Assembly (NCBI GenBank): GCA_958298945.1
Contig: OY282610.1
Location: 33,673,667 to 33,737,666, forward strand
Length of the DNA: 64,000 nt
Reading direction: 5' to 3'
Source: Atherix ibis
Taxonomy: Eukaryota > Arthropoda > Insecta > Diptera > Athericidae
The notes beneath the pieces are model-generated. The model searched no databases, was not told where the DNA came from, and was given only the letters and a program-made list of their open reading frames with translations. The position numbers and the translations under genes are program-made. Positions 4,850-62,956 of this stretch are shown here, one piece after another (the first letter of the stretch is position 1; each line of letters starts with the position of its first letter).

Positions 4850-5990
4850 GAATGATTCGATTTAGGTCAAATATGCACCGTTTTGTTCGATAACTTGTTG
4901 CCATTTTGGAGGTAATTTCATAATGCCTCTCTCATAGAAACCCTCGTCCCTATTGGCAAAAAACTGGGACAGTCGGTTTTCACAATCTTCTCTTCAGGCG
5001 AATTTTTCACCTGCAAAATCATTCTTCATAGACAGGAAGAGGTGGTAATCACTTGGTGCCAGGTTCGGACTATAAGATGGATGCATAAGAACATCTCAAC
5101 CAAGGTCCCGGAACTTCTGGCGAGTCACTATAGATGTATGCGGCTTGGCGTTGTCCTGATGGAACACAATTCCTCTCCTATTGGCCAAAGCTGGCCGCTT
5201 CTGGGCGATTGTCTCTTTCAGACGGTCCAATTGTTGACAGTATAGGTCCGAATTAATAGTTCGGCCGTAGGGGAGCAGCTCATAGTAGATGATTCCCTGC
5301 CAGTCCCACCAAACACACAGAAAAACCTTCCTGGCTGTCAATCCTGGCTTGACCACCGTTTGTGCCGGGTGACCGCGATTTGACCACGACCGTTGTCGCT
5401 TGACGTTGTCATAAGTGACCCACTTTTCATCACCAGTAACCATCCGCTTCAGAAATGGATCGATATTGTTGCGATTCAGCAACGATTCGCAGATGGAAAT
5501 TCGATCCATGAGGTTTTTTTGCGATAACTCGTGTGGCACCCATACATCGAGCTTCCTTTTGTATCCAGCCTTATTTAAGTGGTTCCGAACGATTTTTTGT
5601 GCAATGTTTAGCTCCTGGGCAATCGAAACAGTGCTAACGTGACGGTTGGACTCGACGATTTCCATTATTTTATCGATATTTTCGACAATTGGCCTTCCAG
5701 AGCGTGGTGCATCTTTGACATCAAAATTACCGGAACGGAATCGACGAATCCAAAATTGCGGATGATTGACTGTTACAGTATCAGGACCATAAACACTATT
5801 CACATTTTCAGCTGCCTGGCTTGCGTTTTCGCCTTTATCGAAGAACAAACTGTAAAAAATGGCGTATTTTCTCTTTGTTGGTGTCCATCTTTGACGCGTG
5901 CTAAAAAAATACTGTATCAGAAGCTTTTTTTAGTACGAAATTTTATCTTTCTAACGCCATCTAGTGCAACACAATCGCACTTTTATAACG
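4850..5990 (-). mobile_element. mariner element 3 (different subfamily, 5' end uncertain)
   Basis: This is a second mariner lineage, encoded on the minus strand. Its 3' end begins right after the TA that closes element 2. The other boundary is unclear: no matching terminal repeat was found, and a Tc1-like fragment follows. The coding part is described at 4862-5888. Confidence 0.75.
4862..5888 (-). pseudogene. mariner transposase (second subfamily), lightly damaged
   Basis: The ATG at 5888 starts MDTNKEKIRHFLQFVLR. A single extra base near 5847 then shifts the frame into DKGENASQAAENVN. A 250-codon open stretch (5096-5848) carries the DNA-binding region, WVPHEL, MVTGDEKWVTYDN with the first catalytic Asp, and HQDNAKPHT with the second. 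A TGA after RDLG at about 5096 replaces what should be Trp. The frame then continues through YSPNLAPSDYHLF, which holds the third Asp, and another stop after GEKFA. It ends with WQQVIEQNGAYLT and TAA at 4862-4864. There are about three lesions in 340 codons. Confidence 0.9.
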
Positions 5991-6117: not shown

Positions 6118-6218
6118 AAATATTGAATAGTAAAAAAAAAACTTAAATAAAACAAAGTTGTAACGGAAAATATATTAGGATTATTATTGATATGGTAAAA
6201 AAATTGTGTATAACTCAC

Positions 6219-7333
6219 CCGAGGGTTGTCATTGTGACAATTGTATACCAAAATGCGGCTGGTATTGATGTGAAATTAGTTCCTGTGACGTTTTTCTCAG
6301 CATAGAACATAACAGTTGCGAATATGATAATAGCCATGGCTAATGAGAAGACCAAGAATCCAAGCTCGGAAGCACATGATTTAAGTGTATAGCCAAGGAT
6401 TCGTAGACCTTGTGAATGTCGTGAAAATTTAAAAATACGAAACACCCTGAATACTCGCAGGGTAACAAATGCCCCGGACACATCGTCATTGTCAGTGATG
6501 CCGAGACCGATATAGTATGGCAATATGGCAACAACATCAATGATGCTCATAACACTGCGAACAAATTTGCATCTGTCAGGGGCGGCGAACAATCGCAACA
6601 GATATTCGGCGGTGAAGATCATAACGCAGGCTGTATCTAAGCAAAAGAAGACTATTTTATATCGTTCGCCACAGGGTAAGGTTCCGGCTCGGCCAGGTCT
6701 ATGGCCACATGGTACTGTCTCAACAACATTTGCCATTACGGAAACGGCAATGAAGAATCCTGTCACATAGTAGAAGACGAGCGCCGCTGTTGACGTGTGC
6801 GGATTCTCGAACGCTCGCCACATTTTTTGTCGAATGTTTGTCAATTGCTGTAAATTTTGATCACCATTTTCCGATAGTTTGTCATCCATTAATCGTTCGG
6901 CATTCTCACGTTTCCGGTCTCGATAATCCTCATAGCAGCAGTCACCGATCACATCGGGCATAATTCCGAAAAATGCTAGCTCCTCATCGTAGCTAGTTAA
7001 GCATTCGTGTTTTGGATAATGTAATTTTCCAGTACGATAATAATTTAGGATGTGTCGAAATATATCTGGATCACGATCGAAAAAGTACTCTTTACAGTCT
7101 TCGTCATAGAAAAATTCCCTTTCATTCGATCCAAGCAGGGTGTCGGGATACTTTTCTAATGTGTTACGCCACGTTTCGAAACGTCGCCCCGAAACATTAA
7201 TTAATAGTTTCTCATCATCTGTTTTACGGCGATCCTTTGGTATCGGCGGTGGCGGCAATGGATGTGTTGCAACTGGCACCCAACCGATGGCCGCCGCCCG
7301 TGCAAAAGGCAGCCAAGCGGCGACCGAGGCCAT
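6219..7333 (-). CDS. Shal: Shal/Kv4 voltage-gated K+ channel, first coding exon
   Basis: Partial: 372 codons of the A-type potassium channel Kv4 (Shal), a plasma-membrane tetramer that sets neuronal and muscle repolarisation and subthreshold currents. Start ATG at 7331-7333 ([20 protein letters not shown], the Kv4 N-terminal helix that binds KChIP proteins). The T1 domain is about residues 41-135, with the Kv4 zinc motif H105-x5-C111-x20-C132-C133. S1 is about 183-206, S2 about 225-250, S3 about 258-279. S4 is about 287-310 with R293, R296, R299, K302 and R305 at three-residue spacing. S5 is about 324-345 and the pore helix about 356-370. The exon ends inside the selectivity filter: TMTTLG with the Gly codon split (GG|), donor GTGAGT at 6218-6213. 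The YGD filter, S6 and cytoplasmic tail are not in the window, so the intron exceeds 6.2 kb. Confidence 0.97.
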
Positions 7334-8376
7334 ACTGTGTGGTGGAATGTTTTTGTTTTTCTTCTTTTTGTAATTTCAAAATTGTACACTTTTTCTAACA
7401 GAACAAATCCAAAAAAAATTCCAATTCACAAATATCAAAATCAATTAAAATCTCTCTTTTATCTAATCAAATTTAATTTTATTTTGGTTTTTATATTATT
7501 GTTGTTATTATTTATTATTTTTTTTTATTTTTTTTTTATCTAACTATGATTATGAATAGTTGACATTGACATAAACATGTATATGGCTCATCTACGTTCA
7601 AAAATGTTTATGCTAAATTATGTGAATTAACTATAAAAAATAAATTCCTATGCAATTTTTTTTTCATTAGAGTCTGATTAAAAATTCCCACACAAAATTT
7701 ATCTTTTATCGATCAATATTAGTTATTTAATCATGATTTCTTATTTATCTTCAATGGATATATTCATCCCAAAACTTTTTACATTTTGATTAAAATGTTT
7801 ATTAATTATTTTTTTATTGTATATAATTTAATATTATTTTTTATTGATTTTATTATCAAAGAAATATTTGATATTATAATTAATTTTATGCATAAACATG
7901 ATGGTTGAACATTTATTTTGATAGAACTACAAATGTTGAATTTCTTTATTAATGTCCACTGATGTAAACTCTTTAGATGTTCTGATATTCCTGAGATGGG
8001 ACTCCATTTTTTTAGTATTAGCTACTTTAGCAGACATTTTTAATTAAAATTTATTTGCAAGACAACAATTTAAAATACCAACAATGAATACTCGTTCTTT
8101 AACTATACCGATATATATATTATTATTATTGATATAAGTAACATTTATTAATAATAAATTATTGATTTTAGAATATTTTAATTATTGCTAATTATAATAA
8201 TGTTTGTCTTTAGAACGCTTACATAGCTATAGGCTATAATATTAAAAGTCATACACTTAAAATAAACACTTTTGTTTCTATAACATTTATTTCTAATATT
8301 AATTTCTATAATATCGACAAAGGAGTATACTCTTTTAATTTCATAAATATATATGTATAAATTATTTTTTTTTCCG

Positions 8377-8415
<39 letters not shown>

Positions 8416-9771
8416 AATTTCTAACACTCTCTATTATTGCAATTTTAGTATTTTTAGAATATTATTTAATTTGTAATTTCTTTAAATTTGCTTTTTTTTT
8501 ATTTGTAGATTTAAGAATTTCTTTTAATTTGAACAAATTATTTTTAACATTAACATATATTAATATAATGAAGATAACAGGATTAGGTATCGTTTTATAA
8601 TTTTTTTTTTTTTATATAAATTTAACTAGAATTGTCTTTTTGATTTTATTAAAAATTTATTTCTTTATATTTTCGATTTTATTCCATTTTATGAATTTTC
8701 CTTCCAATTTCACTCAAAAAAAAAATACAATAAAAAAATACTTTTCCTTTTTTTCCATTTCAGTAATTATGTACAAATCTGTTAAAAGAAAGAAAATATG
8801 GAAAATTTCTTGAACATAAATTATTAAATTATAAATAGTTTTTTTTTTTAAGTTCGCAAGTAAAAACTAAAAAAAAAACAACAATTTTTTTTTGAGGTTT
8901 TATTTTTTAACGAAAACTTTTTTCAGATTTTTTTCTTTTTTTTAATAGAAATTTTATTTGTTTTTAACATTCTATTCGAATATTTTTATATTTAAAAACT
9001 TCACTTGGTAATATTTCTATAAGAAAAAAACAACAACATATTTTAACGTACACTTTGAAAAGGTTTCCTTAAGCATTTAGCTTCTAAGAAGTAGAAAAAA
9101 AACAACAAATAATACATTTTCACTTAATAAGTAATGTTCATTTTAATAATATTATTAGAAGTAAAAAATTCAAATTAAAATAGAATTTTTTTTTTGTATT
9201 AAAATCAATAAGTTCAAATAATAATGAAAAGATTTCGATCGAATGTCAATCGTTAAAAACTGAAAATAAACTGAAAAAGCTCAACAGTTATCCTTTAGTC
9301 TCAAGTGCTTTAAGCTTATTTACAATAAAACTTAATCGAAGCTTTAATTTAATTAAGTTTTCGTTGTTGTTGTTGTTGTTGTTGTTGTTTTAGTTTAATT
9401 TTTTAGTTTTTAAATAACATTTATTTCTTCTATTTATAAAAAAGTACTTTTTTTTTTAAATTAATAATTAATTAGAATAATAACTTTGCACTGATATAAC
9501 CTAAAATGGACAATAATAAACAAAAATTTTTACTAATTAAAATTAAATAAAAATTCCGATTTACTACTGAATATGCTTTATTTTCTTTAAATTATCCAAT
9601 TTTTGGTTATAGAATTTACAGATAAACAATATAAATTATTGGCGGTTTTGATTTTAGTATAATTAATTTGAATTTGAATCAGAAATAATTTCGGCGGGGG
9701 TTTGAATCTCATATAAATTTTTACCAAAATGGTTTTGATACCGGATAAAAAAAGTATCGCCGCTTACCATA
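7334..9771. other. Shal 5' UTR/upstream DNA, AT-rich with microsatellites
   Basis: It contains the sequence just upstream of the Shal ATG, inferred to be 5' UTR or intron. It is followed by very AT-rich DNA with an (ATT)n tract at about 8381-8412 and a (GTT)n tract at about 9363-9389. No coding region was recognised. Confidence 0.55.
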
Positions 9772-10604
9772 CGAGGTCTGTTCAAAAAGTATCAAGAATT
9801 TTGAATTTTCGCAGGTTATGTTTATTCGATTATCGATTTTTTGTGGCGTTATGTTGGTACTCATATCTCTCACTTATACAGATAAGTTCCGCCATTTTGA
9901 ATGTTCAGTTAATTTTTGACAGCTGCTCATCGTCGATTTTCATCCAATTTTTGACCAAAAACAGTGACGAATCATGGGTTTATGGTTATGACGTGGAAAC
10001 CAAAGCTCAATCATCCCAATGGAAGCTGCCGGACGAGACAAGACCGAAAAAATCGCGCTCAGTTCGGTCGAATGTGAAGGTTTTGCTTACAGTTTTCTTC
10101 GATTGCAGGTGTGTGGCGCATCATGAGTTCTTGCCGCAGGGTAGAATGGTCAATAAGGAATATTACCTGCAAGTTATGCGCAAGTTGCGTGAAGCAATCC
10201 GCCAGAAACGTCCGGATTTGTGGAAGAACAAAAATTGGCTTTTGCACCATGATAACGCCCCTGTTCACGCATCGTTGCGTGTGCGCTAATTTTTGGCCAA
10301 AAGCAACACACTTAAAATACCGCAGCTACCGTATTGCCCAGATCTGGCCCCCTGTGACTTTTTGTTGTTCATGAAACAGATGCTTTGATCCATTTTTTGG
10401 AATGGGGAAAAATCGAAGACGAGCCAAAACACGTGCAACCAAAGCAGCTTTCAAAAATGAACTGAATATTCAAAATGGCCGAACTACACGTAATTGGCAT
10501 AAGTGAGAGACATGAGTACCAATATAACGCCACAAAAAATTGATAATCAAATATACGTAACCCGCGGAAATTCAAAATTCCCGATACATTTTGAACAGAC
10601 CTCG
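9772..10604 (+). mobile_element. mariner element 4, internally deleted with inverted 5'-end duplication (833 bp)
   Basis: The termini are CGAGGTCTGTTCAAAA at 9772 and its inverse ending at 10604, flanked by TA at 9770-9771 and 10605-10606. The right-hand 200 bp or so (about 10400-10604) is an inverted, diverged copy of the left 5' untranslated region. For example, GGCGTTAT..TGGTACTCAT near 9846 recurs in reverse near 10510-10535. This gives long inverted arms instead of the usual ~25 bp. The core is a truncated transposase. Confidence 0.88.
9962..10383 (+). pseudogene. mariner transposase core fragment
   Basis: This fragment of a mariner transposase joins the 5' UTR directly to the catalytic region. 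It reads SDESWVYGYDVETKAQSSQW with the first Asp, then FLPQGRMVNKEYYLQVMRKL, then LLHHDNAPVH with the second Asp. A TAA at about 10287-10289 interrupts the expected REFLAK after SLRVR. Reading resumes to DLAPCDFLLF with small changes, then the sequence switches to the inverted 5' end near 10385. The helix-turn-helix domain is deleted. It shares its left deletion boundary and its stop codon with the copy at 12976-13600. Confidence 0.85.
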
Positions 10605-12782: not shown

Positions 12783-13654
12783 TACAAAAAGTATCACGAA
12801 TTTTGAATTTTCGCGGATTACGTATATTCGATTTTAGATATTTTTTTTGTGGCGTTATGTTGGTACTCATGTCTCTCACCTATGCTGATAAGTTCGGCCA
12901 TTTTGAATATTCAGTTAATTTTTGACAGCTGCTCATCTTCGATTTTTGTCAATTTTTTTACCAAAAACAACATCGCATTAACACTGCTAAGGAACTGTTG
13001 GACTCTGTCCGCGACGACTCAAATTTGCTCCAGAGGGTCATAATTGGTGACGAATCTTGGGTTTATGGTTATGACGTAGAAAGCAAAGCTCAATCATCCC
13101 AATGGAAACTGCCGGACGAGCCAAGACCGAAAAAAAAAACCCAAGTTCGGTCGAATGTGAAGATTTTGCTTACAGTTTTCTTCGATTGCAGGTGTGTGAT
13201 GTATCATGAGTTCTTGCCACAGGTTAGAACGGTCAATAAGGAATATTGCCTTCAAGTTATTCGCAAGTTGCGTGAAGCAATCCGCCAGAAACGTCCAGAT
13301 TTGTGGAAGAACAAAAATTGGCTTTTGCACCATGATAACGCCCCTGCTCGCGCATCGTTGCTTGTACGCTAATTTTTGGCCAAAAACAACGCACTAATAA
13401 TGCCGCAGCCACCGTATCCCCTAGATCTGGGAGAGCCCCATGAAAGGACGACGCTACGCTACGATTGAGAAGATAAAGACGGCATCGAAGGAGGAGCTGA
13501 ACAACATCACAAAAAATGATTTTTTGAAGTGCTTCGAGGATTGGAAAAATATCTGGTGGGGATTACTTCGAATGGGACAAAATAGATATTCATGAATAAA
13601 TAAATAATTTTTGAAAAAACACAAATATTCGCGATACTTTTTGAACAGACCTCA
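12783..13654 (+). mobile_element. mariner element 5, deletion derivative
   Basis: This is the same family as element 4. The right terminus reads GATACTTTTTGAACAGACCTC at 13634-13653. The left terminus has lost the outermost bases and begins near CAAAAAGTATCACGAATTTT at 12785. The 5' UTR matches element 4 closely. The body lacks the transposase N-terminus and the third catalytic motif. Confidence 0.85.
12976..13600 (+). pseudogene. mariner transposase core fragment
   Basis: The reading begins inside the protein (NTAKELLDSVRDDSNLLQRV), continues through IGDESWVYGYDVESKAQSSQ with the first Asp and LLHHDNAPARASLLVR with the second Asp, and meets a TAA at 13370-13372. It resumes with FLAKNNALIMPQPPY and jumps, by a deletion that removes the third Asp motif, to PMKGRRYATIEKIKTASKEE and a tail that ends at about 13600. 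It is non-functional. The stop codon sits at the same place as in element 4. Confidence 0.85.
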
Positions 13655-28990: not shown

Positions 28991-29316
28991 TCTTAAAGTT
29001 TCTTGTAATATTTGAGAAAACCAAATTTATAGTCTGAATTATACCTTAAAAAAAAATTGTGGTAATAAAAACTTATAAAAAACTGCAAATAAATTAATTA
29101 TTTTTAATTATTAAAAAAAAAAATGCAGGAAAAAAACCAATAAACGAAAGAAAAAAATAATTTTTTTTAAATAGTTTCACTACAGCGCCATCTTGGCGGG
29201 CAGTTAGAGCAAAATGGGTAGAGTGAAAAGATATCCTTATATACAAATTTGCATGATGATCCATTGAGCAGTTTAGGAGTCTATCGGAAGTTTACAAATA
29301 AATATTTATCTTTGTA

Positions 29317-30566
29317 CGAGGGTCGTTCAATAAGTCCTCAGAAAATCCAAGAAATTGCGCTCGTAGTGTCGGTAAAGATTTTTTTTTTGTAAGTAGCATT
29401 ATCGACAGGAAAGCTGTCCATTGCGTAGGTCAATTTCTATCGTTGATTAAAGTTAACGACATTTATTTGTGCATAACAATGGAAAAAAGCGAGTTTAGGG
29501 CTGTCATCAAACATCTCCATTTGAAAGGCTTAAGCCCGAAAGAAATCAAAGCCGAGTTGGATGCAGTTCATGGCTCATCTGCACCTGTGTTTGCGACGGT
29601 TTACAATTGGGTGAATGAATTTAAACGTGGCCGTTCATCCACAAAAGATGAACATCGTTCAGGACGCTCAGTTGAGGTGTCTACTCCTGAAATCATCGAC
29701 AAAATCCACGATCTGATTTTGAACGATCGGCGAATTAAAGTGCGCGAATTAGTTGAGGCCACGGGCATATCACAAGGTACAGTCGCTTCAATTTTGCATG
29801 AAAAATTGTCTGTGATAAAAATGTCGGCAAGATGGGTGCCGCGTTTGTTCTCAGAGGAGAATAAGCGCAATCGTGCAGTGGACTCTGAGACTATGTTGGC
29901 ACTCTTTCATCGCAATCCTGCCAAATTCCTTCGTCGATATGTCACTGTGGACGAAACCTGGATACACTACTACACTCCAGAAACGAAGAGACAGTCATCA
30001 CAGTGGATTTTCAAGGGTGAACGGGCTCCGAAGAAGGCAACAACTGTGCCTTTTGGGATTCGCAGGGCATCATTTTTATCGACTACTTGGAAAAAGGAAA
30101 AACAATAACAGGAGCGTATTACGCGTCGTTATTGCAACGGTTGAGCGAGGAAATCAAAGAGAAACGCCCCCACCTGAAGAAGAAAAAAATCCTCTTGCAT
30201 CAGGACAATGCGCGTGTGGACACCTGCACTGTTTCCATGGCCAAAATTGTGGAATTGAGAATGGAACTGTTGCAGCATCCCGCTTATTCACCAGATTTGG
30301 CCCCGAGTGACTATTTTCTTTTCCCCAATCTGAAGAAATGGCTTGGCGGACGACGGTTCACTTCCAACGAGGACGTCATTGCTCAAACGGATGAGTATTT
30401 TGCAGAACTTCAGAAATCCTATTTTTTGGACGGGATAAAATTTTTGGAAAAACGGTTGGAAAAGTGTATAGAGCTAAAAGAAGATTATGTTGAAAAATAA
30501 AAAATTTTTTTTTTTTAAAAACAGTTTTTTTCCATCTTTTTCTAAGGACTTATTGAACGACCCTCG
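29317..30566 (+). mobile_element. mariner element 7 (full length, 1250 bp, nearly intact)
   Basis: The termini CGAGGGTCGTTCAATAAGTC at 29317 and GACTTATTGAACGACCCTCG ending at 30566 are near-perfect inverses. TA flanks are at 29315-29316 and 30567-30568. It is the same subfamily as element 2. The only obvious coding lesion is one 28-bp deletion. Confidence 0.96.
29479..30500 (+). pseudogene. mariner transposase with a single 28-bp deletion
   Basis: The ATG at 29479 starts MEKSEFRAVIKHLHLKGLSP. The N-terminal bipartite helix-turn-helix DNA-binding domain is intact. WVPRLF and VTVDETWIHYYTPE (first catalytic Asp) follow. Compared with element 2, 28 bases are missing at about 30054, between GTGCC and TTTTGG, which shifts the frame. 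The second half is open again at 30087-30500 with HQDNARVDT (second Asp; the usual His-Thr is Asp-Thr) and YSPDLAPSDYFLF (third Asp), ending EDYVEK and TAA. It is a recently active copy, inactive now unless the frame were restored. Confidence 0.93.
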
Positions 30567-39759: not shown

Positions 39760-41020
39760 ATTATTAAAATCACCAAATTCACCAAATTTAACAAAAACAC
39801 ATTAAAATCACCCAATTCACCAAATTCACCAAATTTACGAAAATCACAAAAATCGTAAAAATCATATCCACCAAAATTAATAAAATCACCAAAATGACCA
39901 AATTCCAAAATCACCAAAATCGTTAAAATTATCAAATTCACCAAAATCACAAAAAATCGTCAAAATCAAATCCACCAAATCACCAAAATCCCAAAATTAC
40001 CAAATTCCCCAAAATAATCAAATCCACGAAAACCACCAAAATCACCACAAACCAAAATCGTCTAAATCATCAAATTCACCAAAATAATGAAAATCACCAA
40101 ATCACGAAAACCACCAAATTCACCAAATTAACCTATTTCACCAAATTCACCAAAATCACAAAATTCACCAAATTCACCAAATTTACCAAAATCACCGAAT
40201 TCATCAAAATCACACAAGTCGTCCAAATAAACCCCTTAAAATTCCCAAATCCAAAAAACCACCAAAATTCCAAAATCACCAAAATCACTGAAATCGACAA
40301 AATTACCAAATTCACCAAAATCACAAAAATCATAAAAATCAAACCCACCAAAATTACTAAAATCATCAAAATCACCAAAATCACAAATTCACCAAACTCA
40401 CCTAAATCACCAAAACCACCAAATTCACCAAACTCACCTAAATCACCAAAATCACCAAATCCACCAAATTTACCTATTTCACCAAATTCACCAAAATCAC
40501 AAAATTCACCAAATTCACCAAATTTACCAAAATCACCGAATTCACCAAAATCACACAAATCGTCAAATTAAAATCCCCCAAAATAATCAAATCCACGAAA
40601 ACCACCAAATTAACCTATTTCACCAAATTCACCAAAATCACAAAATTCACCAAAATCACCAAATTCAGCAAATTTACCAAAATCACCAAATCTACCAAAA
40701 TCACACAAATCGTCAAAATCAAATCCACCAAAATTACTAAAATCATCAAAATCACGAAAATCTCAAATTCACCAAACTCACCTAAATCACCAAAACCACC
40801 AAATTCACCAAACTTACCTAAATCACCAAAATCACCAAAATCACCACAAACCAAAATCGTCTAAATCATCAAATTCACCAAAATCACAAAATTCACCAAA
40901 ATCACCAAATTCAGCAAATTTACCAAAATCACCAAATCTACCAAAATCACAAAATCCACCAAAATTCCAAAATCACCAAAATAACCAAATTCACCAAAAT
41001 AACCAAAATCGACAAAACCT
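39760..41020. repeat. degenerate TCACCAAA-type minisatellite, ~1.26 kb
   Basis: More than a hundred copies of a variable 8-10 base unit (TCACCAAA, TCACCAAAA, ATTCACCAA) run in one orientation. Higher-order segments of roughly 200-300 bp also recur: the run around 40430-40560 resembles 40120-40215, and 40615-40860 resembles both. Minus-strand ORFs rich in F-G-E-F-G-D or L-V-N-L-V-I are by-products of the repeat. Confidence 0.95.
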
Positions 41021-41604
41021 CCAGCAAAATGGGTTGTTTATATTTGAACACTGGTGATGAGCCTTGATCCAAATATCTAGTCCCACGTGACGATGCGGTG
41101 ACCTCTATCCATATATCCATTATCACGTGGCGGATCAATGATCTTGAACAATTATTCTTTATTCCTAATAGCCCGTGTCAGGTTAGAGACCTTTTTTTAT
41201 ATGTACTTTGGATCACGACTTCATTTGCTTGAACTAACTAAGTTAGTGGTTTAAGTACTATTACAATCTATTTAATTTAGTTTTTATTTATTGTATTAAA
41301 ACAAGATTATTATTTTTTTAATTAAAAAATGAATCTGAAATGATACTGTGTCCTCTGGATTAAATGGTTTAGAAATTCTAAGTTTAGTACAAATACTTTT
41401 TATTTCGAAACATTTCTTTTGGCAGTTTCTACAAACTTTTTATTCTTCAACTTTTGAACTTTTCAATAAGTGAAAATATTTATAATTAGTACGGTTGATT
41501 TTTTTTTTAAGGTAATATCCTAAAGTAAAATGTCAAAGATCTTCGATTATTGGTTAAACAAACGTTTTTTTTTTCATTAATTTTATCAGATAATATATAA
41601 ACCT
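41021..41604. other. spacer after the minisatellite, unassigned
   Basis: 41030-41220 is GC-richer and holds two partly similar CACGTG-containing segments near 41090 and 41134. The rest is AT-rich. No gene was recognised. Confidence 0.35.
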
Positions 41605-42009: not shown

Positions 42010-43615
42010 ATTTAAAGATTTCTATTTGGACCATATTAAATTGATGCGCAGAAACCCACGAAGATCCATCCCAACAATACCGCTCACGATTATGGAGATC
42101 ACAACAGCAGTCAACAAGCTTAAGAACAGCAAAGCACCCGGACCTGAAAACCTGGCCCCAGAGGTTCTGAAGTTTGATCCGCCACTCCTGGCCTCGCTGT
42201 TGCATCCTATAATCGTAGAAGCCTGGACACAATGCCACTTCCCGGACAGCTGGAAAGAAAGAGTAATTATCACCATCCCGAAGAAAGGTGACCTTGGCGA
42301 TTGCAAAAACTGGAGGAGAATCACTCTTCTGAACACCATCCAGAAACTAATCGCCTCAATCATCCTGACTCGCATCACTCCAACAGTGGAAAGTGCCCTT
42401 CGCAACGAGCAGTCTGGCTTTAAACCAAACCGCTCCTGTGTTGATCACAACAACAGCCTAAGAATGATCATTGAACAGTCGAACGAATGGAACAGCCCGC
42501 TCTATCTTCTCTTCGTTGACTTCGAAAGAGCCTTCGAGATGATTTCTCATGACGCCATCTGGAGTGCTCTGGCTGAACTAGGTATCCCACAGGCCATCAT
42601 CGATCTCATCCGAGAACTATACCGTGAGGCCCCGTGTAGAGTGCGCTTCAAAGGACGAAACAGCGACCCATTCAACATCTCGAGAGGAGTCAGGCAGGGT
42701 TGCGTAATCTCGCCTATCCTCTTCATAATCGCCCCAGAAGTAGTCCTTCAACGCACTAACAACACAGCCAGCAACGGTGTACAGTAGATACTGCGTAAGA
42801 AACTCCACGACCTGGACTACGCCGACGACATATGCCTCATGTCCCACACCTTCAACAGCATTCAGGAGAAACTCTGCGAGAGGCCCTTGATGCTATACGG
42901 TACCCAAGTTGAAGATGTCGAAAAGTTCTGTTACCTTGGCAGCATGCTCAGCAAGGATGGTGGAACTGAAATAGACATCCAAACGCGCATCAACAAGGCG
43001 CGACAAGCGTACACCTCAACCACCTCTCCATAACACTCAAACTTCGAATATTCAGTTCAAACGTCAAGCCAGTCCTGCTGTACGCTTGCGAAACATGGAA
43101 AGTAACCGACAGCACGACTCGTAAGCCTCAAAAATTTGTGAACAGATGCTTGAGGCATATAAGCAAGATCTTCTGGCCGAACTGGATAACGAACGATGAG
43201 CTGCTTCTTCTCACGAAGCAAATACCCCTTCTTGCTGACATAAAACGCAGGAAATGGAGTTGGATTGGCCACATCGTGCGAAACCCACCTACAGACATAG
43301 CAAGGATGGCACTATATTGGAACCCACAGGGCAATCGCAGCAGAGGACGACCAAGGATCACTTGTAGAAGATCAGTCGAGCGCGAACACCCACAAATTGG
43401 CAAGTCATGGTCGGAAGTGAAAAGGCTAGCCCAAGACAGAAGCAGATGGAGAGAGTTCACAGAGTCTGTAGTGCCGCTATATGCTCCATAGGAGCGACAG
43501 TGTCTCATGTCTATGTGTATAAATGCATATATATGTGTTATGTACAATAAAAAATTGTACAATAACGTAGAAATGAAAAAACTGTCAAATAAAAAAATAA
43601 AAAAAATTTTTAATA
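42010..43615 (+). mobile_element. 5'-truncated RTE-like LINE insertion
   Basis: This insertion interrupts the DDE_3 copy around it. It begins inside ORF2, has no endonuclease domain, and ends in an A-rich tail (CAAATAAAAAAATAAAAAAA near 43585). This is the pattern of a target-primed, 5'-truncated LINE. The exact target-site duplication is not clear. Confidence 0.75.
42026..43491 (+). pseudogene. LINE reverse transcriptase (RTE-like), lightly damaged
   Basis: The RT domain runs from KLKNSKAPGPENLAPEVLKF through KNWRRITLLNTIQKLIA, NEQSGFKPNRSCVDH, LFVDFERAFEMISHDAIWSA (first catalytic Asp) and GVRQGCVISPILF. A TAG at 42785-42787 precedes LHDLDYADDICLMSH, which holds the catalytic YADD. An in-frame deletion follows this motif, as NSIQEKLCE runs straight into RPLMLYGTQVEDVEKFCYLG. 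A frameshift near 43018 leads to LYACETWKVTDSTTR, then WIGHIVRNP and WNPQGNRSRGRPRITCRRSV. The ending is that of RTE-type endonuclease-reverse transcriptases. It is far better preserved than the jockey relics, so younger. Confidence 0.88.
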
Positions 43616-48456: not shown

Positions 48457-51198
48457 ATTTTTTTAGACTTTTATTATTATTATTATTTGTTTTTTGTTAA
48501 TTTTCTTCTTTATTTTTTTTTTACTCTACTATACATAGATTACTCATGTACTACTACTTACTATATATGAATTCTAATCATTAATTTACTATTTACTGGT
48601 TCAATTATATTTATTTATTTAATTAATTTTTTTTTTTTAAATATTTTGTTGTTGTTGTTGGTATATTATTGTAATCTTTTGATTTATTAACTTTTCTTGT
48701 CGGTACTTCCATTTTTAAAATAAATTACACATTGCAATTATTGTGATTTGATTTTTGTCAAATTTGAATTGATGGAATTATCTTTCTTGAATTGGGTTTT
48801 TTTTCTTCTTCTCACCATTTTAATTATGTTATAATCGGTCATACTAATAATACTCTATATATATATATATATTTTTTAAGTTGGTGATTTTATTTTCTAT
48901 TTAATAGTTAAAATTTTCAATTTTTGTCAATTTATAATTTATAGTTTTTCTAATCCAATTTATGATTTGTTCTTCTGTGTTTCTGTAAGGATGTGGTGGT
49001 AGTGGTGTTTTTTTTTAAGTGTGTAATTATTTATCAAAATATATTATTGCAATATTACCTGATATTTATGTATGTATATATATTAATACTATTTTCATTA
49101 TTTTTTTTTTTGGTTTCTTTTAGTACAGTTTACAGTTTATGTTTTAGTACATATTTTAATATATTTCTTTAGTACATTTTTATTAAGCATATTTTTATTA
49201 CAATTTTTTTAGTACAAATTTTTTTTAGTACATTATTTTTAGTACAATTTTTTTAGTACTTTTTTTTAGTACATTTTTTTTAGTAAAAATGGTTGTTATT
49301 AAGCAAATTATTATAAATTTATGCTAATTTTTCATAATATAGTTATTTTGACTGCACTTTTTTTTATAAGGAGGGTAGGGGGAGTGAGGGTAGAAAGGGG
49401 GGGGGGGGAGGGGTATAGCTGGCACTGGTATTTTTTTTTGAAAAAGATAAAATACATTCAAATAAAAAGATCCTAATAGATAATTAATCTAATCTGTTGT
49501 TAATTTTTTTGTTATGAATTTTTTTTTTTGTTTTTTTTTTTTGGTTTCTGTTTTTATTTTTAAATATCTGTTTTGTTACTCTACACAATAAATATAATAC
49601 AATTTTAATTAATAATTATTAATTTTCCTTTCTTTTTTCTTTATACTATATATAATAATTTATACAATATATTTTGCTACTATTGTTACTATTTTCATTT
49701 TTTTAGAGAAGTAAAAATTAAAAAAGAAAAGAAAAAAACATTTCTTGTTTTCTTTTTTATTCAAAGAAATTAATTAAGCGTACTAAAAGTTCATTTACAT
49801 TCATATATTATTTAAAAATAAAAACATTGTGTTTTTTTTTTTCATCCGTAGCTCTTGTTTTAATGTTTTCCGTTTCCTTTTTTGTTTTTGTTGTTTTTTT
49901 TTCTTTTTGCATATACACATTATTTTTATCGATTACTTTAACAAATCCAGTCTACGCTTTTATACAATAGTATTTTTAATTTTTTATTGATCAATCGGCT
50001 TTTTAATAATTTTTTTATTGTGAATTTTATTAAATATACATGTTTGCTAAATTTACTTTATTATTATTATTATTTATTAATTTTTGTTTTTCTTTTTATA
50101 AAAGAGATTTTTTTTCTTTTTGCTAAAATTTTCAATTTACTTTACTCAAAAGAAAGTTTTCTTCTTAAATATCTTTGACTAGATCTTTGATTTTTTTTTA
50201 AATTAATTTACAAAAAAGCAACAACAAACAAAAAAAAACAGAAACTCACATAAATTCCAATTGTTCCAACTTATTAAGATACTATTTTCCCTGTATAATA
50301 TGTATTTGTATTTTATGTTATTTATTTTTTTCTGTTTTTCAGTTTTTAAAAATAAAAATATCTACCCTTAATTTAAACAAAGTTAATTTGGACTATTTTT
50401 AATTAATTTCAATATTTTTTTTTTTAGGAAAACAATTTACTTAATAGTTTTTTTTTTTATTAATTTGAAATGGTATAATTTTCTTTTTCTATTTAAATTT
50501 AATAAATAATCCTTTCAGTAATTATTATTGTTACTTTTGTTAAATGTTCTGACAACAAATGTTTTTTTTATTTATATGCTTTTCCTTAATGAAAAGTTAA
50601 TTCTAAAGTAAATAAATGGAAACGTTCTTTATAAAGTAAATAGTTTTGTGCAAAAATATTTGAATAATAAAATAAATACCAAAAAATTTCCCTACTAAAC
50701 AAGGCGTGAATTCGTACTGATTTACTGATTATAATAAATGTAGAAGATTGAATTAAAAAATTCTTATATCATTTAAGCAATCTTTCTAACGTCGTTCGAT
50801 AGGAAATAATATATTTGGACTGCACTTCTATCGACTCTGGGGTTTTTTTTTTTTCTAAAAAATCTTTTATTATAAAATTGTGTCCTATACGATTCGTACG
50901 AAATTGTAGAGATTTTAGTAGAGATTCTCTCTAAACACGTTCAACAAATTCTGATGAATTATTTGTTAAATATAATTTTAAGATAATAAAAAAATAGGAA
51001 TTGCTGCTAATAAAGAATAATTGTATTCGAAATGAATTTTGTAACGTTTTTTTACGTCGATTAACCGGACTGTAACTCTTAAAACTCGTATTAATGCAAT
51101 TTTATTTGTGATTATAATTCTATTAGAATGGGGGTAGCCATGTATTTGGCGTAGAATTAGTTGAGTTTGAATTCAATTTTAATAAAAAAATATTATTA
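44026..51198. other. AT-rich intergenic DNA rich in microsatellites
   Basis: It contains long (ATT)n tracts at about 47318-47353, 47578-47600, 47918-47955 and 48425-48453. There is also (GTT)n at about 48137-48148 and 48649-48660, TATA-type repeats at 48240-48370, and a G-run near 49397-49412. No coding region was recognised; short hydrophobic ORFs come from T-rich composition. Confidence 0.6.
49120..49290 (+). repeat. TTTTAGTACA short-unit repeat
   Basis: TTTAGTACA or TTTAGTAC recurs at least eight times at variable spacing, with T-run linkers that lengthen and shorten. It looks like a degenerate minisatellite. Confidence 0.7.
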
Positions 51199-52406
51199 TC
51201 TTGTCAAGAAAGTAATTTCGTTTTTTCCCAACAGAGAAATTAATTGTATTTTTTCACAACCAACTTCACACTTAAGCCGCATAATCATATGTATTTTGAC
51301 AGCTAACATAGCAAGGCTATTTTGACAGCTGACATAGCTAGTAGTTTTTGGTTGATACCCTTTTAAATATGGAAAGTTAAAAACAGCATTTTTGTTACAA
51401 TATATTTTACTTTTTTAATATAGAAAAGATAAAAATGCTTTTCAATTTAGAAAGAAAAATATTCGATGTGTATAGAGAAGATGTGTTAAGTGAGCGACAG
51501 TGCCAAAACTAGTTTCCAAAATTTCGATCCGGCAATTTTGATCTCGATGATGCACCACGTTTTGGAAGGCCAGTTGAAGCTGATGAAGACACAATAAAGG
51601 TATTAATTGGTGCAAACCGGCGAATAACAACTTGTGAGATCGCTGCGAGATTAAATTTATCGAATTCGACCGTTTATGATCATTTGAAACGGATAGGTTT
51701 TATCTCAAAGCTTGACATTTGGGTTCCTCATCTACTTACGGAAAAAAATTTGTGCCGTCGCATTGACGTTTGTGATTTGCTTCTCAAACGCTAAGAAAAA
51801 ATGATTCATTTTTGAAGCGTATCAACACTGAGGATGAGAAATGGGTTGTTTACAACAATATTAAGACAAAAGATCCTGGAGTAGAAAAGATGAACCGGCT
51901 CAAAACACTTCGAAAGCCACTATTCAATAAAAAAAAAGGTTATGCTATCTGTTTGGTGGGATTTTAAAGGAATCGTTTATCAATTCTGAAGTGTACTGTC
52001 ATCAGTTGGACAAATTAAATGATTCACTTAAAGAAAAAAGGCCAGAATTGGTCAATAGGAAAGGTATAGTGTTCCAACAGGATAATGCGAAACCACATAC
52101 AAGTTTGACCACTCGGCAAAAGCTTTTAGAGCTTGGATACTGCCACATCCACCATACTCTTCAGACCTAGCACCTTCCGGCTATCATTTGTTTCGGTCTT
52201 TTAGACGGTAAAACGTTTAATTCAAATGAGGAGATCAAAAATCACTTGGATCAAGAACAAAAATTGTATGAGCCTGGAATCATGCTACTGCCAGAAAGAT
52301 GGCAATGGGTATTTAAAAAAAAAAATATTAATTCACTATAAGAAAGTCGTCTTTCATTTTTATTATTGTAAAAAAAAAAAAAAAAAATTACTTTCTTTAC
52401 AACCAA
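51199..52406 (+). mobile_element. mariner element 8 (third subfamily, ~1.2 kb)
   Basis: Imperfect terminal inverted repeats: left TTGTCAAGAAAGTAATTTCG near 51201, right AAATTACTTTCTTTACAACC ending near 52404. TA flanks are at 51197-51198 and 52407-52408. It lies just downstream of onecut on the opposite strand. Its subfamily differs from all the other mariners here. Confidence 0.85.
51435..52341 (+). pseudogene. mariner transposase (third subfamily), broken
   Basis: The ATG at 51435 starts MLFNLERKIFDVYREDVLSE. A TAG follows CQN after about 25 codons. The DNA-binding half continues with FRSGNFDLDDAPRFGRPVE and STVYDHLKRIGFISK, then KLDIWVPHLLTEKN. After a frameshift near 51790 the first catalytic motif reads INTEDEKWVVYNN. 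Part of the following sequence is deleted near 51975. FQQDNAKPHTSLTTRQ holds the second Asp. A further shift garbles the third motif before KTFNSNEEI and a TAA at 52339-52341. Confidence 0.88.
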
Positions 52407-52809
52407 TAGAAAAAATAAGAATAATATAAAAATTTGACATTGATGGGATTTTTATTTTGCTTCATAATTGCCAACAATAAGATTCAAGAAGGTGGTGGTG
52501 GTGCCCGATTATTGACAAAAGGGTGAAATAGAAATAATGATGATACGTTAGTACCCAATAAAGTTGGAATTTAGTAGAGTTGTGTAGTGTGCACACTAAA
52601 ATCACGTCGGCTTAGATTAGAATTATTTTTGTTTTCAAATTATAATAATTAAAATATTAAAATTGTTAAATTATGTTATTGAAGGGGTTGAATTATATAA
52701 TAAAAATATGAAGAGAAAAAAAAATAGTTTTGTTAATATATTAAAATATTAAAAAGTAGAAGTATCTATGTGAATATGAAATTCGAATAAATGGAAAATC
52801 TGCTTTGAT
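52407..52809 (-). other. onecut 3' flank / probable 3' UTR
   Basis: An AT-rich stretch downstream of the extended onecut frame. An AATAAA-type signal occurs on the minus strand at about 52449-52454, a plausible polyadenylation site. Confidence 0.35.
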
Positions 52810-52903
52810 TTACAATATCAATAATTGTCTACCAGTTAATCCATTATTGCTGCCAGTTTTTTGATGACGAAGCTGAAGATGATGGTGGTGATGAGAGGGA
52901 TTT

Positions 52904-52950
<47 letters not shown>

Positions 52951-53547
52951 ATGACTTTGATATTGATTGTTGTTAGGATTACTTTGATAATTCTGACATT
53001 GATTATTATTATTATTATTATTATTAAGCTGTTGTACTAAATTTATTCTATTATTTCTAGCAGTGGAATTAGGTTCTCTGGTGCTACAATTATTTTCACT
53101 TCCATTAAAAAAAGAACTTCCAATAAAAATATCACTATTACTTCTTTGACTATTTTCATTATTTTTCAAACTATTTAGATTTTTATGACAATGAGGTGAA
53201 CGAATATCCAAATCATCACGATTATGAATATCATCGATATTATCGTTTATAGTTGCACCTCGAAGAACTACAACACCACCATTACTACTATAACCTGGAT
53301 TATTGGTATCTAAAATTTTATTTCGATTTATTTCACTCTGTGTAACAATAACATTTGTTGATAATTGCGAATTATTTGTAACCGTTTGATTGTTTCTAAT
53401 CGCTTCTAATTGCTGAAGACTTTGGCCCCGTTGATCTAATACATCATCATCTGATTTATCAATATACCAAAATTGGTAATGATCCTTTTCGTATCGATTG
53501 ATTATTTTGACCGTATTGTTATTGTTTTTGTTATTAATATTGCATAA

Positions 53548-53582
<35 letters not shown>

Positions 53583-54175
53583 TATTATTGTTATTAAAAG
53601 TAATACTATTATTATTATTATTATTATTATTATTAGAATTAGAATTATGGAAATTTAAATTGCCATTTAAACGGTCACGCTTACTATTTTTTATACGAAT
53701 GATCGTTTTAATATTTGCGTCAATTTCATTATCATTATCATTGTCATTATTATGATCAAGAATACTATGGCCAATTTCTGTTGTAGCTATTATTGTATCA
53801 TCGCATACGGTTGGATTGTTAATATCATTAATATTTCGATTAATATCATCGCCATCATAATCATCAATATCTTCACCAACATCGCTATCAGCTGTATTAA
53901 TATTGTTATCAATACCATTGCAATTCGCAACATCATTGCCAAGAGCGTTATTATCGTCATCATCGTCCCCATCGCTAGCACGCTCCCCATCCCCATTATC
54001 ATCCCTGTCCTTACCCCTATCATCATCAACATAACCATCACCGTCACCATCATCTTCAACTTCATCTTCATCATCTTGAAGTACATAGTGCGAAATGCAA
54101 TTTTCTGTGGTATCATCTAATCGTACATTATCGCTATTGCTACTATTATTATTATCATTATTATTATTACTATTT

Positions 54176-54212
<37 letters not shown>

Positions 54213-54223
54213 CATTATTGTTG

Positions 54224-54254
<31 letters not shown>

Positions 54255-54338
54255 GATTACGATTACGATTACCATTACTAATACTATTATTGTTGTTGCT
54301 ATTATTATTATCAATACTATCATTATTATTATTATAAA

Positions 54339-54378
<40 letters not shown>

Positions 54379-54676
54379 TATACAACGACTCAAATTGTGA
54401 TGATGATGCTGATGATGTTCATGATCATTCGATTGTGTTTTAGACTGACCGTGCGTCTGTTCATGATTGTGATGTTGGTGTTGTTGATTATATTGTTGAC
54501 CTTTTGTCTGATTAACCTGACGATTCTGATGAGTCTGATGATGATATTGTTGCTGATCATGCTCATTGTGTTGCTGATGATGATGGCTATGATTCTGAAT
54601 TGATTCGTTTTGTTGTTGACCAGTACGTTGATTATGATTATGATTATGGAATTGTTGTTGTTGCTGCTGCTGCTGC

Positions 54677-54713
<37 letters not shown>

Positions 54714-55128
54714 GCTGGTGAATTTGTTGATTGTTTTGAAGATTCAAATGACTAATACTATTGTGATGGTTGTTACTATCATCTTCGTTAGGATGTTGCT
54801 GATGATGCTGTTGTTGATGATGATGATGATGATGATGTTGCTGGTGTGATGGTTGGCTAATATTTCTGCTAATGTCATTAATACTACTATTATTGCTATT
54901 AATAATTTGTACATGACTAGTATGTTCATTGAAATGTGTTTGCTGTTGTTGCGGCTGTTGAGTATGATTGTTATGATGGTGCGCATTTGAGTGATGATGA
55001 TTCTGCGACTGTTGTTGATGTTGTTGCTGCAGTTGGAGTTGATGTAAAAGCTGACGACCGCTATGGTGGTAATGATTATGCTGTATATTTTGATGATGAT
55101 TCAATAGTGATATTGGTGAGGTAGTATG
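52810..55128 (-). CDS. onecut: In-phase C-terminal extension of onecut beyond its TGA (772 codons)
   Basis: The codon after the onecut TGA is CAT, and the same frame stays open to TAA at 52810-52812. No ATG is needed: the first codons read HTTSPISLLNHHQN. The order is a Gln/His-rich segment (about 55100-54400) with a long Gln run (54716-54650), Asn runs (about 54380-54130), an acidic Asp/Glu segment (about 54090-53850), more Asn runs (53640-53545), then a complex stretch with VKIINRYEKDHYQFWYIDKS and GGVVVLRGATINDNIDD. Another Asn run, a Gln run (52960-52900) and the end LTGRQLLIL follow. Asn, Gln and Asp tracts suit transcription-factor activation or condensate-forming regions. It would be made only by readthrough of TGA-C or by splicing around the stop. 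The alternative is unusually open 3' UTR built on trinucleotide repeats. Confidence 0.5.
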
Positions 55129-55413
55129 TCACAACATGTCATCATGATCATGATCAGTATCACGATCATGATCCAAATCGAAATCATTGTCTTGACCCAA
55201 TTCAAGATCCATATCATTATCGTCATCCAGATCAAGTGAATGCGGATTTCCTGGCGATAAACCTGATTGATTTGAGTTTCTTGGATCCTCATCTCGCCAT
55301 TTATCCATTGATCGGCGACGCGCATTCATAAAGAAATTCCCTACTGTTGTGGGTTCCAGACCCAATTGTCTTGCTATCGTTACTTGCATCTCTTTTGAAG
55401 GCCTCTTCGTTTC
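55129..55413 (-). CDS. onecut: onecut coding exon 4: homeodomain C-terminal part and tail
   Basis: Acceptor TTTTAAG before GAA at 55413. It encodes ETKRPSKEMQVTIARQLGLE then PTTVGNFFMNARRRSMDKWR, which is helices 2-3 of the ONECUT homeodomain. The recognition helix has Phe at position 48 and Met at position 50 (NFFMNARRR), the class signature. An acidic, His-Asp-rich tail (LDLDDDNDMDLELGQ, DLDHDRDTDHDHDDML) ends at TGA 55129-55131. The next base is C, the leaky stop context, and the frame remains open beyond. Intron 3 is only 76 bp (55414-55489). Confidence 0.95.
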   Translation of the reverse strand, partial: ETKRPSKEMQVTIARQLGLEPTTVGNFFMNARRRSMDKWRDEDPRNSNQSGLSPGNPHSLDLDDDNDMDLELGQDNDFDLDHDRDTDHDHDDML

Positions 55414-55489
55414 CTTAAAATCATAATTAATTTTATTTAACAATTTAAATATACTAAAAAAAACACATAAAAATCTTTTTATTATTCAC

Positions 55490-55599
55490 CTTAAAAATAG
55501 CTTGCAAAGTACGCCTCTGAAGGTCTGTAAAAACTAAACGTGGTTTCTTCGGCGTTGGCATATGATCCGATTGTTGAGGATCCTCCCGTCTCCTGGGAT
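55490..55599 (-). CDS. onecut: onecut coding exon 3: linker and homeodomain N-terminal part
   Basis: It reads PRRREDPQQSDHMPTPKKPR then LVFTDLQRRTLQAIFK, with donor AAG|GTGAAT at 55490/55489. This joins in phase to ETKRPSKE of the next exon, completing the homeodomain. The acceptor used here follows AATTAAAG (exon start 55599). A second AG 15 bases upstream (exon start 55614) is also in phase and would add five residues; the sequence alone does not decide. The basic KKPR at the homeodomain start is likely part of the nuclear localisation signal. Confidence 0.9.
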
Positions 55600-55836
55600 C
55601 TTTAATTGAATTCACTTTTAAGAAATTAATGAGGAATCAAATATAATATGTACATCGAATTTTTGTTTTTTTGTTTTTTTTTTTAAAAAAAGTTATTGTT
55701 TTTTATTATTTTATATAAAATGTTCACGCTAAAAAAAATCATAGAAAAATCATTTAAAAAAAAAAAATTCCATAGTCAACTTAAATTTATTAAAATATAA
55801 TCAATTTAATTGGTAATTTCTAAAATAAATACTTAC

Positions 55837-55860
55837 TGCCTCTCTGTGGAATCTGAGCAG
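55837..55860 (-). CDS. onecut: onecut coding exon 2: 24-nt microexon
   Basis: Acceptor TTTTTCAG and donor GTAAGT flank 24 bases coding AAQIPQRG with split codons at both ends (phase 1 to phase 1). It joins MSALRMA of the CUT domain exon to the homeodomain linker, matching the usual 'MSALRxAA' continuation. Only this acceptor keeps the frame into exon 3. Skipping it would also keep the frame and delete eight residues, so an alternative isoform is possible. Confidence 0.85.
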
Positions 55861-56834
55861 CTGAAAAATTCAACATAAATAATTCATCAGTTTATTTAAG
55901 TTAATTATCGATTTAAAGAATATAATTATAATTAAAAACAATTGACACCAAACAAAATCAAATTACATTTATTATGTTCATTTATAGTATGAAATTAATA
56001 GAAGAAGAAAAAAAAACAATTTTTCAATAATTCCTAATGAAAATTTTATTTGAATATATCATTTTTGTTTTCTTTTCAAAAGTGCACTACATCAAATAAT
56101 GTGAATTTAAAATAAAAACTCAAATGCTAATTAAATTTTAAAAATAAAAACAAATTCCAAAATTTAACTTGACATGTCAGCAAATAAAAAAATTAAAATG
56201 GCGGAAAGAATTTGAATATTCCTCGAGGCACAACAAGAATATCAAAACAAGCTACAACTTAAACCCTGCAAAAGTTTTTGGGGGAAAAAATCTTCCGATT
56301 CAACAAAACGGTATAAATGTTTAAAAAAATTGAATAGAATTATTTATTGTACATATTTACATAAGCTTTATTTTTTTTTATATTTAATACTTAAGGATAT
56401 TTTTTTTTAATCCTTGGTTAATTTTGATTTTCTTATTTTTAAATTTTTTTTAGTCTGTTTGTTTTTTTTTTTTTTTTAACTCACTATAAGGTTGAAAGTG
56501 CAGTTGCTGTTGTTGTTAATGACCTCTCTTTATTTATGTTGCACCTCAGGTTAACATTGCGCATCTGGGTGTCTGCAATGAAAACAAGAGGAGGACTAGT
56601 CATGATTGCAGAACTCGATTTTCTTTTTCGTATAAGAAATATTATTTTTTTTACATTTTTTTTTTTTTATGTTAAAAGTTTGATTTATTTTCCCGAAAAA
56701 TGCTTGATTTTGTTTTTTTTTCATTTGAACATAAATTTAAAAAAAATTCTTTATTGAAATTTTATCATATAAACAATATTTGAAAGAAAATTTCCGTTCC
56801 CATACAATTAGGTAAGTGCTATTTATTATAAATG

Positions 56835-61158: not shown

Positions 61159-62956
61159 CTGCCATTCGAAGAGCTGACATCCGTTGATATTCGGGCTCCT
61201 GAAGCCATTTGTACATGCGTCGGAAGGTCTCCCTGCCCGATTTTAATTTTGACCAAGGTTTCGGATTCCTAAGCAGATCAGATAGAGTGCCTTGTGATCG
61301 GCACAGGACTCTTTGGGCAAAAATTGCTTGCGGTATACTGTATCGTTTCAACTCGGCCGATATCCTTTGGGCTAGCTCTTTGGTGTTGATCTCCTCAACA
61401 TCGCTGCTGATTGAATTCACTGTTACCGGTGTACTATTATTATTTGTATTCGAGTTATTATTATTATTCCCTGTCACTGTTTGTATTGTTGATGTGCCAT
61501 TGTGTGATGCGCCGCCGCCACCACCTCCACTGCCCAGATTCAGGCTTGATCTGGTCGATATGACCTGATGTTGTACTGGGGCATGGTGTATGGCAAGAAG
61601 TGGCGGGGAGGGTGATTGTACAACAACCGCTTCCCTGTGCACGTGCGATATTTGTACTAAACCCGGCGGCGTTGAATTCGGAAGTGGCGACACCACCGCA
61701 GAATGTGGCGCTATTGTCGTCAGGCCATTGATTGTTGCCAAATTGGTTGAACCAAAACTAGTAACGATCGTGTTGCCACCTGGCGAATGCAGCGAACCGG
61801 ATTGCGGGCTCAATGTCGGACTATGCTGCTGGAGGTTCTGCCGACTCAACATGTCACGATGTCCGTACGGAGATTCATAGCCTGACGGAGACATGCTCTT
61901 CTGTGGCGATTGTAAATCATTTTGACTATAAGAGCTCTGTGGCGAAAGCGGACTCGGCTGCTGTGACATACCAATACCGCCGAGCGTATTTGTTGGCGAA
62001 GAATAATTGTGCGGCGGCGACATGCCCATCGATGGCAACTTATCATAGTTATATGGTGAATTGACACCACTTAGACCAAGGCTTATTCCCATACTATTGT
62101 TCTGCATTACCGTAAATGAACCGCTCACGTTACTTGTATGGCCGTAAGCGAACTTTTCAGACATGGTGGATATCGGTGGCAACGGTTGCAGTGGTGTCAA
62201 AGTTGCATACGATGAATTTGGACTAAACCCCGGCGGAGACATCCTGCCGTTGACCGATGTGAGCGTCTGGTATGTGGGCTCGTGCAAGGCTCGGAAATCT
62301 GACGTGTCGATCATCTCTGATGATGGTGTCAATTTACCTGGACTGAGCAGCTGCGAATCTCTTGAGTCGTCTTGAGGCTGTACTATTACTGACAGAGCTT
62401 CGTGTCTGGCTTGGTGCTCCAGCGTCACCTCCACTTCACCTGGTGAAAGCTCTTCAGCTGCAACCACCATATCCACACCACCCTTGTGCTCCTGTTTTAT
62501 CAGCTCCAATCCATGACCGTGGGCTATTATTCGCGAATGATTTCCACTTGATGTGGCAACCGATAATGGACCCAATGTCACCGCTGATATGGCTGATTCT
62601 GTGCTAACACAGTCATCATTGGATGAGTGATGATGATGGTGGTGTTGCTGTTGCTGTTGGTGGTGATGATTGTGATTATGGACATGACTATGGCTATGAC
62701 TATGACTGTGATGATTGTTCAACTGCTGAGAGTGATGATTGTGATGGTGATGCTGCGACTGTTGCTGTAGATGATTGTGCCCGTTATTCGTTTGCTGATT
62801 ACTACTGTGCTGAGTTGATCCCAATTCATCGATTACAGTTCCGACCATTACAACCGTTCCATGGTGACTATTCGGATTCGGTGAATCAACAGACGTTTCA
62901 ACAACTAATGGCTCACTCAGTGATTGCTGTTCGATTATTTCACCGATCGATTCCAT
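61159..62956 (-). CDS. onecut: onecut coding exon 1: N-terminus and CUT domain
   Basis: onecut is the fly ONECUT-class (HNF6-like) transcription factor, a nuclear DNA-binding protein of neurons and photoreceptors. ATG at 62956 (MESIGEIIEQQSLSEPLVVE) is preceded in frame by a TAA 24 bases upstream, so the start is well supported. The exon gives 599 codons plus one base. A His/Gln-rich stretch lies at about residues 60-110 and a Ser/Pro-rich segment at about 220-400. A Gly run and Asn run lie at about 470-510. The single CUT domain is at about 518-599 (EEINTKELAQRISAELKRYS, QGTLSDLLRNPKPW, RMYKWLQEPEYQRMSALRMA). Donor GCAG|GTAAAT at 61158. Spliced through exons 2-4, the protein to the TGA is 738 residues (743 with the alternative exon 3 acceptor). 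Confidence 0.96.

Follow-up and report, generated by a model that had tools for sequence, protein, structure and literature searches.

The last exon of the onecut gene in the fly Atherix ibis appears to carry a second coding frame behind its canonical stop, a TGA followed by C (55129..55131, minus strand) that we propose to be leaky. As the original prediction had claimed, an in-phase frame of 772 codons runs past this TGA to 52810; it extends from 55128 to 52813 (52813..55128, minus strand), contains no ATG, and is closed by a TAA at 52812-52810 (52810..52812, minus strand), where its three-base periodicity also ends. All positions are those of the window, the whole 64,000-nucleotide stretch of contig OY282610.1 that we analysed. 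Judging from the frame itself, from simulations and from periodicity, we hold that the extension is very probably protein-coding and that readthrough is the most economical way in, and we regard the two statements taken together as reasonably likely. On this reading, some ribosomes would decode UGA-C as an amino acid and go on for 772 codons to the TAA at 52812, which would give the CUT-homeodomain factor an intrinsically disordered, acidic tail rich in Asn, Gln, His and Asp. The mRNA would presumably be continuous through the extension, and the frame would be reached by readthrough and not by splicing.

The onecut gene and its stop codon

The predicted gene upstream of the TGA is a complete onecut, with all of its exons on the minus strand. 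Exon 1 (61159..62956) starts from the ATG, includes the CUT domain (Pfam CUT, 1.5e-34) and has a 3' end that reads CGAATGGCAG before the boundary and GTAAAT after it. It is followed by a 24-nt microexon for AAQIPQRG (55837..55860), placed by in-phase splice compatibility, by exon 2 with the first part of the homeodomain (55490..55599), and by exon 3 (55132..55413), which leads to the canonical C-terminus DHDHDDML and is identified by Pfam (Homeodomain, 1.6e-6 for the open frame) and by the C-termini of relatives. One CUT domain and then a homeodomain, found with Pfam and in relatives alike, place the gene in onecut. The microexon lies between the two domains and may be used alternatively, because 81 of the 156 retrieved proteins with that end of the CUT domain continue with AQIPQR. 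With the microexon counted, the main protein has 738 residues and the predicted extended product 738 + 1 + 772 = 1511, in line with the isoform of about 1,510 residues that had been proposed. The CUT domain, the AAQIPQRG microexon, the homeodomain and an acidic C-terminus ending in D-M-L or similar are all features of insect onecut (HNF6 class), and the closest among 179 proteins compared are two entries from the sciarid Pseudolycoriella hygida, with 75% identity over 614-629 residues.

The bases directly 3' of the onecut TGA are CATACT, which gives it the preferred readthrough context of TGA or TAG followed by C. The age of the stop can be judged from related proteins. A protein search with onecut gave 344 onecut-like matches, 120 of them listed, and the homeodomain motif NARRR is found in 118 of these 120. 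The distance from NARRR to the C-terminus is at most 128 residues in all 118 (the maximum in insect onecut retrieved later is 129), and no insect onecut among the 118 is annotated past the stop; in this the A. ibis frame differs from the listed relatives (120 of 344 matches), which are annotated to the stop only and reach no farther than 129 residues past the motif. Among 152 retrieved NARRR proteins the C-terminal residues are VL in 43, ML in 37, LN in 14 and LL in 9, and the C-termini of a Ceratitis protein (P0078) and an Aedes protein (P0113) are among the few that look like gene-model errors. As judged by these C-termini, the TGA at 55131-55129 marks the C-terminus conserved among insect onecut proteins, and because its position coincides with that conserved end we reject a recent nonsense mutation. 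A second protein search, whose query joined the CUT-homeodomain part to the first 61 residues of the extension and which covered proteins of about 831-2644 residues, listed 94 proteins. Long C-termini occur among them in flatworms, nematodes, a horsehair worm, a copepod and other entries, and comparison by eye, without alignment, found no likeness between these C-termini and the extension.

Elsewhere in the window we observe a Shal-type (Kv4) potassium channel gene, represented by its first exon (6218-7375, minus strand), and several pieces of mobile elements. Mariner-like transposase pieces, on both strands, have Pfam support at 817-1392 (within 817-1395), 5099-5929 (within 5096-5929) and 29302-30105 (within 29302-30500), and further ones are recognised by eye at 4408-4830, 9717-10289 and 12926-13372. 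A retrotransposon reverse transcriptase (Pfam RVT_1) lies at 42011-43491, with a likely downstream piece, by eye, at 42970-43491. The region 39927-41057 is a short-period repeat array in which several frames, from both strands, stay open; they come from the repeats alone.

The open frame behind the stop

Across all six frames of the window the 772-codon extension is the longest stop-free frame, followed by onecut exon 1 with 608 codons. The longest alternative frames over the same DNA had been put at about 120 codons; the figure holds for the sense strand (108-118 codons) and fails for the opposite strand, where frames of 149 and 160 codons are found. The three opposite-strand frames contain 22, 88 and 39 stops, on which ground an antisense gene is rejected. 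Outside perfect trinucleotide runs there is no stop in 616 in-phase codons, compared with 22 in 611 and 134 in 612 codons of the other two sense phases. In Markov simulations of orders 1, 2, 3 and 5, the whole extension is open in 0 of 1000 sequences at every order, and the same is true of the complex stretch at 53050-53540, within which lie 156 non-repetitive codons (53053..53520, minus strand). The frame behaves like coding DNA, in line with the earlier claim of non-repetitive, coding-like stretches besides trinucleotide runs. Two further parts are weaker when taken alone: in the same four orders the first 136 codons are open in 24, 3, 7 and 41 per 1000 and the acidic piece in 0, 0, 0 and 23 per 1000.

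How many stops should such a sequence contain? Independent codon positions predict 15.6 in the extension, and a null model with three-base periodicity expects 5.1, with zero stops in 0.6% of 2000 simulations; for the 156-codon complex stretch alone this periodic null expects 2.05 and yields zero in 13% (P0 0.13). The extension offers 248 single-base routes to a stop, such that 5% neutral change would be expected to produce 4.6 stops (P0 0.01). For comparison, 200 kb of the same chromosome contain no frame of at least 700 codons. The longest there, with 683 codons, reads by eye as a bZIP exon, the next longest resemble reverse transcriptase or transposase, and among the frames with neither likeness, again by eye, the maximum is 236 codons. 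A chance open frame is rejected by the stop counts, the simulations and this 200-kb comparison.

Period-3 information, measured in 300-base windows, is 0.07-0.54 inside the extension, falls to 0.004-0.010 in the three windows that come next after the TAA and reaches values up to 0.028 farther on, and a cumulative score peaks 9 codons ahead of the TAA. The value of the complex stretch is reached by 17 of 3820 control windows. That of the last 468 bases of onecut exon 1, which are truly coding and low in periodicity, is reached by 1959 of 3820, and coding DNA is not alone in showing periodicity.

The repeats within the extension keep a common phase. All 14 trinucleotide runs of at least 12 bases stand in the N, Q or H phase, and pairs of like runs of this length share phase in 34 of 34 cases. 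The corresponding counts are 6 of 22 for window bases 1-52800 and 4 of 7 for the control; with runs of at least 9 bases the counts are 62 of 68, 14 of 44 and 19 of 33, respectively. An imperfect AAT array (54144..54378, minus strand; period 3, 78 copies, 80% matches, 0% indels) lies entirely in the Asn phase. In the two Asn-rich arrays, departures from AAT fall on codon positions 1, 2 and 3 in 8, 13 and 9 cases, with no third-position excess; they look as they would without selection and count against constraint at the protein level. In the two Gln arrays all 16 of 16 single-base variants are at codon position 3, a count in which slippage makes the variants non-independent.

The encoded tail would be acidic, with 86 D+E and 42 K+R and with Lys scarce. 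A fold model of the complex stretch, made from the single sequence, has a mean pLDDT of 30.8 and suggests a stretch that is disordered or not predictable. We find no known domain in the extension in Pfam (E up to 0.001) or NCBIfam (E up to 0.1), and a search of known proteins with the complex tail, over lengths of about 506-1610 residues and E values up to 10, gave no relative. Searched against its own genome, an assembly of 670 Mb, the complex tail has one match, itself, and a transposon or repeat family is not supported for it. The extension also contains CAGCAGCA, which the consulted part of PMC5100048 describes as enriched in Drosophila readthrough regions.

Comparable genes in this genome and in other flies

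A Pou search of the A. ibis genome gave 6 matches, and the end of the coding frame is readable at 2 of the 6 loci, L023 and L024. L023 (G000:C2:76699403-76702615), which we take to be vvl/drifter from recognition of its sequence, has the stop TAG followed by CAATCA and a second frame of 342 codons in which H, Q, N, S and G abound. Its second stop is doubled (TAA TAA), and periodicity past that second stop is still high, at 0.251. We regard L023, which lies outside the window, as a probable case of readthrough. L024 (G000:C5:82522446-82525658), a nub/pdm-like POU gene, has TGA followed by CCCTCA; its frame then stays open for 123 codons, with P, Q, S and H abundant. As a check of specificity we took the best 10 of 94 homeodomain matches, nine of which could be scored (L031 is without the motif). 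The second frames of these nine other homeobox genes measure 1, 4, 20, 5, 45, 9, 1, 0 and 8 codons, some of the readings, e.g. that of L030, probably running into an intron, and their stops are TAA in seven cases and TAG in two.

The closest parallel is Drosophila vvl/drifter (Dfr). Passages of PMC8417969 report that dfr readthrough is demonstrated in Drosophila, where it inserts glutamine and affects target genes, and describe the Dfr extension as disordered, rich in Gln, Asn, His and Ser, and with a composition more similar between flies than its sequence; an excerpt of PMC13170385 adds that dfr readthrough is promoted by a stem-loop. The likeness to onecut lies in a homeodomain factor (in Dfr, of the POU class) with a long 3' UTR and a disordered, low-complexity extension, and the same layout, TAG-C and 342 codons, recurs in the vvl-like orthologue of the A. 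ibis genome itself. The differences are that Dfr has a UAG, 286 codons, experimental evidence and a stem-loop, whereas onecut, a candidate, has a TGA, 772 codons and no stem-loop that we could find.

At the level of whole genomes, the part of PMC5100048 that we draw on states that TGA and a following C are favoured among Drosophila and Anopheles readthrough candidates, and that readthrough is abundant in Drosophila, Anopheles and most other insects tested, such abundance going undetected in Tribolium and Apis. The onecut extension resembles the PhyloCSF candidates of Drosophila and Anopheles in its in-phase second frame past a conserved stop and in its TGA with C; it differs in that those candidates rest on multi-species alignments and the onecut extension on a single genome. 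FlyBase has readthrough extensions as short as 4 and as long as over 1000 residues, most of them 8-300, according to an excerpt of PMC4528330. In the literature on onecut and readthrough, supplementary lists being outside our scope, we found no paper naming fly onecut as a readthrough gene, and the onecut passages of PMC13232516 and PMC5555453 contain nothing on fly onecut readthrough. The onecut extension is a new and unusually long candidate of a phenomenon already known in flies.

Routes into the frame and the meaning of the tail

The simplest route is readthrough, because the frame is without ATG and stands behind a deeply conserved stop. Its 772 codons include no ATG, no GTG and 7 TTG, and a separate cistron is therefore unlikely; with no ATG in the frame, an independent cistron is set aside. 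Composition leads one to expect 3.5-4.2 ATG, so that the absence of Met is mildly unexpected, and with merely this number predicted we dropped it as proof of selection. The first 27 codons past the TGA have an N/Q/H/D share of 48% in phase 0, compared with 12% and 4% in the other phases, and this restriction to phase 0 favours direct continuation past the TGA. There is no AATAAA or ATTAAA within the first 1.4 kb past the TGA. Motifs of the poly(A) type appear in the last part of the extension (ATTAAA at 53712, AATAAA at 53332, 53322 and 53047), and the first AATAAA after the second stop is at 52451..52456 (minus strand). No stem-loop was found 3' of the TGA (z from -1.45 to +0.37 over 12 windows; z 0.62 in a separate test). 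This fold test is weak, because the sequence after the stop of the vvl-like L023 also folds no better than its shuffles, though its energy over 80 bases is -12.2 kcal/mol compared with -4.2 kcal/mol for onecut.

Could the extension simply be untranslated 3' UTR, its long open frame made by slippage of AAT, CAA, CAT and GAT that started in the phase of the gene's D/H-rich end and owed nothing to selection on a protein? The segment is repeat-rich, its Asn arrays are without third-position excess, the repeat array at 39927-41057 is likewise open in several frames, and in the control 19 of 33 pairs of like runs of at least 9 bases agree in phase, which is above one third. We nevertheless consider this origin unlikely, since it must also accommodate 616 non-repeat codons with 0 stops, a sharing of phase among runs of at least 12 bases that is complete in the extension (34 of 34) and partial elsewhere (6 of 22 and 4 of 7), a loss of stops beyond the 3-periodic model (P 0.006) and a coding signal that stops at the TAA. 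Somewhat less likely again is that the extension is a coding exon to which alternative splicing gives access by cutting out the TGA, for instance by joining exon 2 to an acceptor within the extension and skipping exon 3, which would produce a CUT protein with half a homeodomain and a Q/N-rich tail. Here the evidence turns partly on splice-site scores from a weight matrix. Phase-0 acceptor-like sites lie at 55050, at 55026 and beyond, and exon 2 ends in phase 0; the site at 55026 scores 3.35 and the three real acceptors 2.03, -6.68 and -3.73. Because 55026 outscores all three, this matrix has no power to dismiss acceptors, and the acceptor-like sites, the poor scores of the real acceptors and the phase of exon 2 together make exon 3 skipping possible. 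Against splicing, the best alternative donors in exon 3 score -0.2 and -0.33 and lie within the homeodomain, compared with 3.1-4.5 for the three real donors. The region from the TGA to the first acceptor is moreover open, with the same composition as the rest, and such a tail is found in 0 of the 118 homeodomain proteins among the 120 listed.

Any other means of passing the TGA or of entering behind it, be it RNA editing of the UGA, selenocysteine or internal initiation at a non-AUG codon, would make the same frame useful, and 7 TTG codons are available for the last of these. We think all of them very improbable: the 772 codons hold 0 ATG and 0 GTG, no unusually stable structure lies downstream of the TGA, and no SECIS is seen when 51000-56000 is compared with Rfam at E up to 0.5, the sole match being a sub-threshold snoRNA family, by which a selenoprotein is rejected. 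For editing, the A concerned has a 5' G, a neighbour that ADAR disfavours.

Readthrough of the onecut stop, as the original prediction had it, is partly supported, by the coding-like frame, the TGA-C, the lack of an ATG, the conserved stop and the vvl layout; the prediction's reasoning from Drosophila is loose, given that the genome has 670 Mb and that this onecut is nearest to that of a sciarid gnat among the proteins compared. By analogy with what is reported for Dfr-L, the tail may tune activation or condensation. A bolder suggestion, which we offer tentatively and ourselves find rather doubtful, is that readthrough in this fly lineage allowed the 3' UTR to expand into a giant tail, free of Met, built from repeats, acidic and rich in Asn and Gln, with the leaky stop sheltering the birth of a condensate-forming activation domain in a neural regulator that is conserved in its other parts.

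If the extension is translated, it would to our knowledge be among the longest outside Drosophila and Anopheles, and the tail would double the onecut protein (772 residues next to the canonical 738). Onecut would then join vvl as a homeodomain factor with a long isoform set by the efficiency of termination and not by splicing, and would offer a case in which to study the origin of low-complexity activation tails from repeats in the 3' UTR.
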